A stretch of DNA of 15,508 nt from NCBI GenBank assembly GCA_030696235.1, contig JAUYSN010000486.1, forward strand, positions 1-15,508, written 5' to 3'. The notes under the pieces were generated by a model, which had not been told where the DNA came from, did not search any database, and saw only the letters and a program-made list of their open reading frames with translations. The translations under genes and the position numbers were made by a program. Positions 3,592 through 6,885 of this stretch are shown here, in pieces (the stretch's first letter is position 1; every line of letters starts with the position of its first letter). This stretch comes from Sulfuricella sp. (GTDB lineage Bacteria > Pseudomonadota > Gammaproteobacteria > Burkholderiales > Sulfuricellaceae).

Positions 3592-4914
3592 GTGCCCGTC
3601 ATACAGCTCCCCGGTACGCCCGACTTGCTTGGCCTCCATGCGGCAAACCCGTTGCGCTATCCCTATCTGCTGCAAACTCTGGGTTGTCCTGGCTGGGATA
3701 TTCTTTTCGCTTTTCCAGTGCAGTCGCAAATATTCCCCTCCGATCCGACAGGACAGGAAAAATCATTTTTTTCCGTGCTGGATGAAGAATGGGGAAAAGC
3801 GGCGCGCCCATCAGAGCAGGGGGTGACCAAGCTTCCCTTTCACGGGGGCTGGTTCGTTTATCTCGGCTATGAATTGTTGCACCAGTTGGAGCCCTCCGTC
3901 GCGGTAAAGCAGCAGGCAAGCCAATTCCCGTTGGCCGCCCTGGTCCGCATTCCTGCGGCTATCATGGTCGACCGTGCCGAGGGGCAGACCTACTTGTTTG
4001 CCGAGGAAGCCTGTTCGCATCTTCTTGAAGACCTGCACACCGATTTGAACGGTGTTGCCGAATATATAACCAGCCCGGTAAAGGTGCATGAACTTGAAGA
4101 GGAAGACGAACAGATTTTCCTGCAAGGGGTGACTGAGATTAAGCGCTACATCCTGGAAGGGGACGTGTTCCAGGTCAATCTTGCACGCCAGTGGCGGGCT
4201 CGGATCGAACATCAAGACAGTGCAGCCGATGTTTACGCGCGTCTGCGCGAGAGTAATCCGGCCCCGTTTGCGGGTATCGCCGACTTCGGCAGACACCAGA
4301 TCATCAGCTCATCCCCGGAGCGATTGGCGAAGGTACGCGGTGGCGTGATCGAGACGCGCCCGATCGCCGGCACGCATCCGCGCGCTCCGCTGGCAGAAGA
4401 GGATGAGCTGCTGCGTCGACAGCTGATCGCCAGCCCCAAGGAACGCGCCGAGCACATCATGCTGGTCGACCTCGAGCGCAATGATCTGGGGCGGGTGTGC
4501 GAGCCGGGCAGTATCGAGGTCAGCGAACTGATGACGGTGTGCAGCTACGCTCACGTTCACCACATCGAATCCAGCGTGCGCGGTCGTTTGCGCGAGAATA
4601 CGACTCCTTCCGAAGTGATGCGGGCGCTGTTTCCAGGAGGCACTATTACCGGTTGCCCCAAAGTCCGCACCATGCAAATCATCAGTGAGATTGAACCCTC
4701 ACCCCGTTACGCTTATACGGGCAGCATGGGGTATCTTAATCTCGATGGCAGCATGGATCTCAATATCGTGATCCGCAGTTTCATGCTCGAAGGGAATGCG
4801 CTGACCTTCAAGGCCGGCGCAGGCATCGTTGCCGACTCCGACCCCTTACGCGAACTTGCCGAAACCCGCGCCAAGGCAAAGGGCCTGCTCAGGGCTCTAG
4901 GAGCGGCTCAATGA
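3592..4914 (+). CDS. pabB: Aminodeoxychorismate synthase component I (PIAGT class)
   Basis: PabB converts chorismate, with ammonia from a PabA glutaminase, to 4-amino-4-deoxychorismate on the way to p-aminobenzoate and folate. The 440-aa protein has an N-terminal anthranilate-synthase-I-like part (about 1-160) and a C-terminal chorismate-binding domain. Motifs in that domain are GDVFQVNLARQW (190-201), SSSPERL (239-245), PIAGT (257-261), LVDLERNDLGRV (291-302), FPGGTITGCPKVRTM (347-361) and KAGAGIVADSDP (407-418). The start is GTG with AAGG (3582-3585) 6 nt upstream. PIAGT replaces the PIKGT of E. coli PabB, whose lysine forms a covalent intermediate. PIAGT is usual in anthranilate synthase TrpE but is also known in a subclass of PabB. 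The overlap with pabC (ATGA, 4 nt) and a length shorter than typical TrpE favour PabB. No pabA is visible here. Confidence 0.88.
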   Translation: MPVIQLPGTPDLLGLHAANPLRYPYLLQTLGCPGWDILFAFPVQSQIFPSDPTGQEKSFFSVLDEEWGKAARPSEQGVTKLPFHGGWFVYLGYELLHQLEPSVAVKQQASQFPLAALVRIPAAIMVDRAEGQTYLFAEEACSHLLEDLHTDLNGVAEYITSPVKVHELEEEDEQIFLQGVTEIKRYILEGDVFQVNLARQWRARIEHQDSAADVYARLRESNPAPFAGIADFGRHQIISSSPERLAKVRGGVIETRPIAGTHPRAPLAEEDELLRRQLIASPKERAEHIMLVDLERNDLGRVCEPGSIEVSELMTVCSYAHVHHIESSVRGRLRENTTPSEVMRALFPGGTITGCPKVRTMQIISEIEPSPRYAYTGSMGYLNLDGSMDLNIVIRSFMLEGNALTFKAGAGIVADSDPLRELAETRAKAKGLLRALGAAQ

Positions 4915-5888
4915 CCCTGGTTAACGGTCTTCCGAGCGAACATGTCCGGGTCTTTGACCGGGGTCTGACGTACGGTGACGGGGTTTTCCGAACCTTGCTG
5001 GCGAGGGCGGGCCATCCATTGTGCTGGCCACGCCATTATGACAAGCTGTACGCGGATTGTGCGGCGCTCGGCATTATGTGTCCGCCTGAAGCTTTCCTGG
5101 CTGCGGAAATGGCCGAATTGATAGCGGAAACACCAGACTGCGTGCTGAAAGTGATCGTCACCCGTGGAGAAAGCCAACGTGGTTACGCGATTCCGGAGCA
5201 CATGGAGCCGACCCGCATCCTGACGGCGGGTCCTGCTCCGCAGTACCCGGCAAACTATTTGACGGATGGGGTGCGGCTACACCTTTGTTCCACACGCCTT
5301 GCCATACAGCCCTTGCTGGCCGGGATCAAGCATCTCAACCGCCTGGAAAACGTGCTGGCGAGGCGGGAATGGACCAATTCCGAAATTGCCGAGGGGTTAA
5401 TGCTCGACATGGATGGAAATGTAATCGAAGGGACGATGAGCAATCTGTTCCTTCTCAAGGGCAAGACCTTGCACACCCCGGACCTTGGACGTTGCGGCGT
5501 GGCCGGCGTGCAGCGGGAGCGCATCATGGATCTGGCCAGCAGGCTCGGCATGACGGTCAGGGTGGAAAATCTGCCGTTGGCCCGAATCTACGACGCGGAC
5601 GAGGTTGTGCTTTGCAATAGCATCATCGGCGTCTGGCAGGTCAGGGAGCTGCTAGGAACCTGTCGGACTTATGGGGATCGAAGCGAGAATTCGGCTGGGC
5701 GAGGACAGATTTTGCCGGTTTTGCAGGTTAATAGTCATTCTATTGACCAAAAAAGCGGCGAAATATGGACCGCCCAGGCGGATTCGCAGCCGATTCATCA
5801 TAAGTCCGACAGGCTCCCAGGAAAAACATGGCAGGCCGGCAAGCTGGCGGCACGCTTGAGGAGTTTGCTGGATGATGACTGTCATTAA
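4911..5888 (+). CDS. pabC: Aminodeoxychorismate lyase with an in-frame repeat insertion
   Basis: PabC is a PLP enzyme of fold type IV that releases pyruvate from aminodeoxychorismate to give p-aminobenzoate. The N-terminus VRVFDRGLTYGDGVFRTL (residues 12-29), the PLP lysine Lys140 in GIKHLNRLENVLARRE, Glu173 in GNVIEGTMSNLF and CNSIIGVW (235-242) are all intact. The product is 325 aa, whereas the family is usually about 270 (E. coli 269). The excess lies between VREL (244-247) and the family-like tail KTWQAGKLAARLRSLL (305-320), and is encoded by the palindromic element at 5652-5820. Removing 55 codons restores about 270 aa. The start overlaps the pabB stop by 4 nt, and the 3' end overlaps mltG by 17 nt. 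The frame is open throughout, so the gene is probably still functional, but activity cannot be judged from sequence. Confidence 0.93.
   Translation: MTLVNGLPSEHVRVFDRGLTYGDGVFRTLLARAGHPLCWPRHYDKLYADCAALGIMCPPEAFLAAEMAELIAETPDCVLKVIVTRGESQRGYAIPEHMEPTRILTAGPAPQYPANYLTDGVRLHLCSTRLAIQPLLAGIKHLNRLENVLARREWTNSEIAEGLMLDMDGNVIEGTMSNLFLLKGKTLHTPDLGRCGVAGVQRERIMDLASRLGMTVRVENLPLARIYDADEVVLCNSIIGVWQVRELLGTCRTYGDRSENSAGRGQILPVLQVNSHSIDQKSGEIWTAQADSQPIHHKSDRLPGKTWQAGKLAARLRSLLDDDCH
5652..5820. repeat. 169-bp palindromic (MITE-like) element inside pabC
   Basis: The ends are inverted repeats of 22 bp (5652-5673 and 5799-5820) that match at 20 positions. Their core CCTGTCGGACTTATG is perfect on both sides. 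The symmetry continues inward: 5687-5701 and 5771-5785 match at 13 of 15 positions as reverse complements, so the arms reach at least 50 bp. AGGA occurs at both edges (5654-5657 and 5819-5822), possibly a 4-bp target duplication. The distance between these copies is 165 nt, exactly 55 codons, so the pabC frame is kept. No transposase is encoded. It resembles a MITE, or the in-frame palindromic elements described in Rickettsia. Family membership cannot be settled without finding other genomic copies. Confidence 0.85.
5858..5863 (+). promoter_or_regulatory. Ribosome binding site deciding the mltG start
   Basis: GAGGAG lies 8 nt before the ATG at 5872 and inside the pabC reading frame. It supports 5872 rather than the adjacent ATG at 5875. 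It is only 37 nt after the right arm of the palindromic element. Confidence 0.7.
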
Positions 5889-6885
5889 GCGCGGCATTGC
5901 CGCGCTCATCGTGTTGGGAATGTCGGCTGCGGGCTGGGAGCTGTATTTCGCCAATACCCCCGTACACCTGCCACTATCCCCCTACGAGTTTACGCTCAAG
6001 CATGGCAGCAGCCTGCGTACCATTGCCAGACAGTTCAGTGCCGAAGGACTGATTCCGGAGCCGTGGAGCTTTATTGTGCTGGCAAAAACCTTGGGCAAGG
6101 AAGGGGAGATCAAGGCCGGCAACTATCAACTGGATCGTGAAATCACCCCGTTCCAGCTGCTTCAAAAGATCACCAAGGGCGATGTCAGCCAGAGCGAAAT
6201 CGTGTTCATAGAAGGATGGAATTTCAGTCAGATGCGCAAGGCGCTCGACGAGCATCCGGCTATCAGGCACGATACCGCCGGTTTGAGCGACAGGGAGCTG
6301 TTGAATCGCCTGGGGGTGCAGGAGGAAAACGCCGAGGGGCTGTTTTTTCCAGACACTTATTATTTCAGCAACGGGATGAGCGACTTGTCCGTGCTCAAAC
6401 GTGCCTACCAGATCATGGGGCAGCGACTGTCCGATGCCTGGCGGGAACGCAGCCCGAATCTGCCGTATTCCACACCTTACGAGGCTTTGATCATGGCTTC
6501 CATCGTCGAGAAGGAGACCGGTCGATCTGGAGAGCGCCAGATGATCGCTGCAGTCTTTATCAATCGTCTGCGTATCGGCATGAGGTTGCAAACGGATCCG
6601 ACCGTCATTTACGGCCTTGGTGAGACGTTTGACGGCAATTTGCATAAGCGCGATTTAACCACCGATAATGCCTATAATACTTACACTCGCGCAGGCCTTC
6701 CGCCCGGTCCGATTGCCATGCCGGGATGGGCTTCTATCCATGCGGCTCTACACCCAGCGGCGACCTCCGCGCTGTATTTCGTGAGCAGGGGAGACGGTAC
6801 CCACCAGTTTTCCCGCAGTTTGGCGGAGCATAATCAGGCTGTGGCGCGTTACCAGAAGACCGTACCCAGAAAAAAGATTAACTAA
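5872..6885 (+). CDS. mltG: Endolytic murein transglycosylase MltG (YceG-like)
   Basis: MltG is an inner-membrane lytic transglycosylase that cuts nascent peptidoglycan strands and is thought to set glycan chain length. The 337-aa protein has one N-terminal membrane segment (about residues 5-25). A LysM-like region follows around [20 protein letters not shown] (40-59), and then the YceG domain. The catalytic glutamate is Glu213 in ASIVEKETG, corresponding to Glu218 of E. coli. [20 protein letters not shown] and [17 protein letters not shown] are hallmark segments. The start overlaps pabC by 17 nt and has a good ribosome binding site. pabC-mltG-tmk is the conserved order. Confidence 0.97.

Follow-up and report, generated by a model that had tools for sequence, protein, structure and literature searches.

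In a Sulfuricella-like bacterium the gene for aminodeoxychorismate lyase (pabC) contains a palindromic segment that is very probably an IS1182-type MITE, moved in trans, whose in-frame insertion survived by filtering and left the enzyme working. The element is present in multiple copies, shares its ends with IS1182-family insertion sequences, is bordered by CTAG at most of its own ends, has empty counterparts of its sites in two other genes, and lies in frame in ten genes. This pattern suggests that an IS1182 transposase moves the element, that its genic copies persist by filtering and that the interrupted PabC still functions. For the pabC copy the data support the wording 'tolerated, recent in-frame insertion'; insertion in frame is an established habit of the element family, and neither adaptation to genes nor use of the peptide finds support.

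The insert in pabC and the anatomy of the element

The window, i.e. the whole stretch of 15,508 nucleotides analyzed here, is a metagenome contig from a genome of 1.97 Mb in 501 contigs (90% complete). The host is Sulfuricella-like, its PabC sharing 87–92% identity across the aligned region with close homologues, including those of S. denitrificans and other named Sulfuricella. Positions 4911..5888 of the forward strand form an open reading frame of 325 residues, which runs without a stop across the palindromic segment (ORF listing). The relevant features are:

3592..4914, + strand: presumed pabB-like gene, directly upstream and overlapping the pabC start (coordinates from the ORF listing)
4911..5888, + strand: pabC (aminodeoxychorismate lyase; NF004761, TIGR03461), 325 aa, with a 55-residue insert at about residues 249–303; relatives have about 270 aa
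5652..5655, no strand: left target copy CTAG, reading CTA G (Leu) in the pabC frame
5656..5816, + strand: MITE core, 161 bp, of the 165/204-nt ('ATGG') subfamily, open in the pabC frame
5656..5673, + strand: left terminal inverted repeat GAACCTGTCGGACTTATG, with a near-identical terminus in IS1182-family IS ends
5726..5748, + strand: central hairpin of the palindrome, GGTTAATAG-TCATT-CTATTGACC (RNA fold and sequence)
5799..5816, − strand: right terminal inverted repeat (inverted-arm match; IS-end comparison)
5817..5820, no strand: right target copy, now CCAG (sequence)
5872..6885, + strand: presumed mltG-like gene, its start overlapping the pabC end (coordinates from the ORF listing)

Both NCBIfam models, NF004761 (PRK06092) and TIGR03461, match the window PabC above their cut-offs up to residue 247, the Pfam match covers residues 24–246, and the best solved relatives of the protein are aminodeoxychorismate lyases (2y4r, 1et0). 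After the insert the PabC tail GKTWQAGKLAARLRSLL resumes, and in an alignment of ten proteins the relatives align straight across this point, with a continuous C-terminus and no unrelated extension. At 17 related loci, several of which appear to be one genome under two names, the insert at residues 249–303 is absent from every PabC. Fifteen of these proteins have 267–271 residues, in agreement with an earlier sequence-only reading, which had placed an uninterrupted PabC at about 270, and the remaining two have 291, with a different insert of 21 residues elsewhere. None of the best 120 of 7,810 PabC homologues is longer than 291 residues, and across these two sets the insert is seen in the window genome only. 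For two genomes of the same genus (G008 and G009) no close PabC match was found, and they are hence uninformative on the insert. A different in-frame insert of 21 residues, PLLNPLPRTGEEANVKGACF, is present near residue 75 in PabC of a sister species (L044 of G002, P0043 and P0046), and the DNA encoding it is similar to short palindromic repeats seen elsewhere.

The sequence-only reading had described inverted ends of 22 bp with 20 matches and AGGA borders 165 nt apart that add 55 codons without a stop to give a product of 325 residues. All of this holds: the arms at 5652–5673 and 5799–5820 (22 nt each) are 91% complementary (20/22), and the spacing of the borders is as described. The 169-bp segment that it delimited is likewise real, but the element proper is 161 bp, both 4-bp target copies (CTAG on the left, CCAG on the right) having been included in the count. 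Thus 161 bp plus a 4-bp CTAG-type duplication make up the net 165 nt added to pabC, and by keeping the frame the insert would also spare the overlap with the start of the downstream gene. The element is imperfectly palindromic over its full length. Its predicted RNA fold has −100.6 kcal/mol, compared with a mean of −47.9 for shuffled sequences (z −13.2), and none of 200 shuffles folds as well. The element peptide alone matched nothing in PADLOC or Pfam, and the two matches of the element in Rfam were both under their gathering scores.

Copies, target sites and kinship with IS1182 insertion sequences

The proposal that the segment is a non-autonomous mobile palindrome is borne out by its multiplicity, both in its own genome and in relatives. 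The 169-bp segment matches five distinct places in its own genome; because three of these are cut by contig ends, further copies are likely. The 15-nt core occurs there four times at one mismatch or fewer, against none for a reversed control. In the search of relatives the element is present in 24 of 61 genomes and in 12 of 12 of the genus, its own one counted. Among 369 genomes drawn from the class, with at most two candidates scored per genome, 20 carry it at E 1e-8 or better, its own included, and the copies outside its own genome are 69–92% identical. Among 80 loci retained for comparison, the named hosts of element copies include Sulfuricella, Gallionella, Massilia, Aromatoleum and Polaromonas. 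In all, 103 distinct complete copies were collected, mostly of 164/165 or 203/204 nt net, and a plasmid search with the element gave no match. Conservation of the insert in PabC of distant lineages, a lack of other copies and an unrelated C-terminal extension in orthologues were each looked for, and none of them was found. Two copies in the same genome as the window (L006 on C174 and L008 on C227) seem to provide neighboring ORFs with their stop codons; we take these ORFs to encode a pdxJ-like protein and a response regulator.

CTAG is found at both ends of 76 of the 103 complete copies, at one end of 21 and at neither end of 6. In AsmA, the sister genome G009 retains a single, unfilled CTAG (CTA GAC) and G006 reads CTAG-element-CTGG, while three other AsmA loci that were tried proved unalignable at the element site. 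In FolC the element is absent from all ten other genomes that have the gene, four of which read CTG GAG where G004 has CTA-element-CTA AAG. One of these ten, G007, has an unrelated insert in its folC (L229), in frame and about 91 residues long, a few residues from the site used in G004; parts of this insert recur at other loci. The AmgK-like kinase carries the element at two sites, such that each form is the empty control for the other. At the pabC site itself, none of the 17 related loci has the exact pre-insertion CTAG; they mostly read GCC GG(A/G) where CTA GGA would be needed, and in G011 a CTAG lies three bases further upstream. Target duplication at insertion is found in the family, and the family pattern suggests that the pabC copy also entered at a CTAG and duplicated it.

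Ten IS1182-type loci were checked for comparable ends. Six of these (L182, L190–L194), on plasmids and in genome G181, have CTAG flanks and inverted ends of the form CTAG[G/C]AG[C/T][C/G]TGTCGG, with 16/16 positions matching between the ends; in L184 both ends are imperfect, L172 and L181 have one end each, and L183 has none. Over 23 nt, the IS in L172 (G017) is identical at its right end to the 164-nt subfamily of the element (see below), which suggests that the 164 type is the older form. At positions 1–140 of the same locus (contig C33) an IS1182 transposase gene without its 5' part abuts another inverted-repeat sequence, GGTCAGGTCTAGCTAA...TTTAGCTAGACCTGACC. Searches for an IS1182-type transposase gave no match in the window's own genome (90% complete), only 8 of the 250 genomes searched within the order yielded a close transposase, and a search with PF13751 recovered the end sequence at only 1 of 12 loci. 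When a parent transposon was sought by end pairs in the first 148 loci, the sole spacing above 203 nt joined the ends of two MITE copies. The element shows the features of a MITE of the IS1182 (ISAzo1-like) group, namely shared terminal repeats, small size, no transposase and many copies. It matches these insertion sequences in its terminal repeats and CTAG flanks, but differs from them in lacking a transposase and in having only about 20–23 terminal bases in common. To judge from the ends, IS1182-family (ISAzo1-like) insertion sequences are the likely source of the transposase that serves the element.

In the proposed mechanism, an ISAzo1-like IS1182 transposase acting in trans would recognize the element ends CTAG-[G/C]AGCCTGTCGGACTT and insert the element at the tetranucleotide CTAG, duplicating 4 bp. 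The net addition of 165 (or 204) nt by the subfamily seen in pabC is a multiple of three, and its consensus has one stop-free frame, which would enter and exit in phase CTA|G. Landing at CTA-G in the right orientation would extend a host gene by 55 (or 68) codons with the gene still open; such insertions would therefore survive, whereas other genic ones would be purged. In pabC the added peptide would loop out flexibly after the last strand of the core, ahead of the C-terminal helix. With a known target, defined ends and a candidate transposase, it becomes possible to test how such elements move and how they survive within genes.

The two subfamilies and in-frame copies in other proteins

The 103 copies comprise 73 of the GAAG type (67 at 164 or 203 nt net), 24 of the ATGG type (22 at 165 or 204) and 6 others. 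A host gene is thrown out of frame by the 164/203-nt type but not necessarily by the 165/204-nt type, to which the pabC copy belongs, and the two subfamilies together amount to a natural experiment. Phase 0 of the GAAG consensus runs into a stop within the terminal repeat, and the open frame exits in a different phase; phase 0 of the ATGG consensus is uninterrupted throughout, with 8 of 24 single copies having a stop there. Coding calls were made with a periodic Markov model that assigned 210 of 225 held-out windows correctly, 10 wrongly and 5 as non-coding; a first coding-potential model had been dropped, as its best false frames outscored the median true frame. In-frame copies inside genes number four of 23 classed for the ATGG type (pabC, FolC, AsmA and FHA) versus none of 69 for the GAAG type, with one ATGG and four GAAG copies at locus edges left unclassed. 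The frame model called two of these four, and pabC and FHA were added by homology, a treatment that the GAAG copies did not receive. The corresponding hypergeometric probability (by hand) is 0.003, or 0.013 without the window copy and 0.06 for the model calls alone, and the genic enrichment of the ATGG type as seen in the DNA copies is weak. Two GAAG copies were called in a gene on the opposite strand, which they disrupt, and two further ones are in frame only when the element is present.

Searches of 5.8 billion proteins with two peptide-region queries gave 19 and 11 hits, corresponding to 23 different proteins. In 11 of these the element is flanked by host sequence on both sides, always as the ATGG (165/204) type and with the same peptide. 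These proteins are RsmE, RimI, AnmK, FolC, AsmA, two histidine kinases, an FHA protein and an AmgK-like kinase, the last represented by three proteins with two insertion sites between them (P0009 and P0022 share one site, and P0008 scores under the AmgK cut-off). Once PabC is included, the element occupies 11 sites in ten genes. A GcvT/YgfZ-like protein with the element is truncated at a contig end. All ten proteins with the GAAG type, and likewise one with the ATGG type, have the element at one end of the protein. The contrast in internal placement (11/12 versus 0/10) has a chance probability of 1.7e-5 (by hand), with both queries being of the ATGG type, lengths lying between 0.55 and 1.75 of the query, and a protein database showing only open frames. 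Several 164-type copies (P0011–P0015, P0018, P0019 and P0023) form the predicted N-termini of TonB, NlpD-like, RlmN, TyrA, Hsp70-like, AlgH-like and HypF proteins; these may reflect wrong start-site annotation or genuine starts inside the element, and the N-terminal 164-type fusions (TonB, NlpD-like, RlmN, TyrA, HypF and others) were excluded from the insertion count. The element-bearing FolC belongs to a 90% cluster of 11 sequences on 20 contigs, and the hybrid kinase to one of 14 sequences on 18 contigs, these being cluster sizes and not numbers of insert carriers.

The occurrence of the same peptide in several proteins could in principle point to an immobile element, the shared segment being an ancient domain or extension. 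This explanation is effectively refuted by the unrelated folds and positions in which the peptide lies, by its copies outside genes, by the CTAG ends and by the empty sites. For annotation this serves as a warning that the same peptide in ten unrelated genes marks a transposon and not a domain. A further alternative is that the RNA hairpin is bypassed or removed and the peptide never made, as reported for the palindromes of Magnusiomyces mitochondria. The hairpin of −100.6 kcal/mol spans the insert and could hinder ribosomes, and palindromic elements that are bypassed in a yeast mitochondrion have been described (PMC6649704). Yet all 11 internal insertions keep the frame and are free of stops, which would be needless under bypass or splicing; even with this argument weakened by databases that show open proteins only, we consider bypass very improbable.

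An open frame in itself was rejected as a sign of adaptation, because when the element consensus is shuffled by dinucleotides, at least one open frame still occurs in 939 of 2000 shuffles. It is conceivable, albeit somewhat doubtful, that the 165/204-nt form is a translation-compatible subfamily, one base longer, which emerged from the frame-shifting 164/203-nt element with stops in its ends and uses genes as landing places. If so, a standard disordered 55-residue linker would have spread through the proteome of free-living bacteria.

State of the enzyme and comparison with known coding repeats

In the AlphaFold2 model of the window PabC the core has a pLDDT of 80–98 by ten-residue block, residues 253–296 fall below 50, and residues 301–320 are back at 92–95, with the helix at 312–321 restored. 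The model of the uninserted S. denitrificans PabC (mean 92.9) also has this C-terminal helix. The comparison with and without insert that the sequence-only reading had called for thus predicts a retained PabC core and an insert that is a disordered loop of low confidence. The dN/dS values of the window pabC against five relatives are 0.15–0.22, versus 0.12–0.22 among the relatives, although these are pairwise values and the divergence is probably for the most part older than the insertion. Along with the structure model, they argue that the inserted PabC is probably a working enzyme.

The insertion might instead have killed pabC, with the frame open by luck, leaving a recent pseudogene. The insert is seen in this genome only, which allows little time for decay, and close to half of the dinucleotide shuffles mentioned above contain an open frame by chance. 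Against this stand the low dN/dS, a weak point given the age of most of the divergence, the element in frame in the FolC and hybrid kinase clusters, and the predicted retention of core and tail; on balance a pseudogene appears unlikely. The reading of the element as 'domesticated', which had been proposed, is not supported, as the insertion is seen in this genome only and the peptide is without a sign of selection. Selection on the element peptide for its own sake was sought in the 165-nt copies: relative to the consensus, the three genic ones have 4 synonymous and 11 non-synonymous changes, and the 15 others have 37 synonymous and 77 non-synonymous changes and 7 stops.

The comparison with the palindromic elements of Rickettsia (RPE), also made in the sequence-only reading, holds at the functional level, the same peptide lying in frame in ten genes, PabC included. 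We know of no transposase or fixed target for the RPEs. The element described here has identified ends, a CTAG target, IS1182 relatives and a frame-shifting sister subfamily as a contrast. In the available portions of their descriptions, RPEs are palindromic repeats of about 100–150 nt, located between genes as well as in frame in unrelated genes, with a conserved peptide (PMC10969869, PMC4316617). Both are thus palindromic repeats that lie in frame in unrelated genes and keep the ORF, but the host here is Sulfuricella-like and not Rickettsia, and the likeness is drawn from their descriptions. Although it works like an RPE, the element is placed in a family of its own that derives from a transposon. 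The best-known protein-coding palindromes are those of Rickettsia, with its small genome and intracellular life, and such palindromes are now seen in Sulfuricella and apparent relatives.

Among the matches listed, titles and abstract openings on Sulfuricella repeats, coding palindromes, IS1182 MITEs and ISAzo1, a scope that takes in few subscription papers, contain no report of the element family, and a literature search by element sequence returned an unrelated match only. Other MITE-like repeats overlap genes in a different manner. The enterobacterial repeats RU-1, RU-2 and RU-3 (Delihas 2007) are MITE-like with open frames in annotated genes, but in the accessible text they are found at the ends of proteins or within a hypothetical ORF, whereas the present element is inside conserved enzymes (PMC2759123). 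QMITE1 and QMITE2 of Coxiella overlap ORFs, sometimes in frame in mid-ORF, but the mid-ORF cases named in the portion available are hypothetical proteins, and the direct repeats are variable and not CTAG (PMC5896051). REP/BIME sequences are described as extragenic palindromes of 20–40 bp, many with GTAG-type tags (PMC3733652), from which the element differs in its 161 bp, its CTAG and its additional presence in genes.
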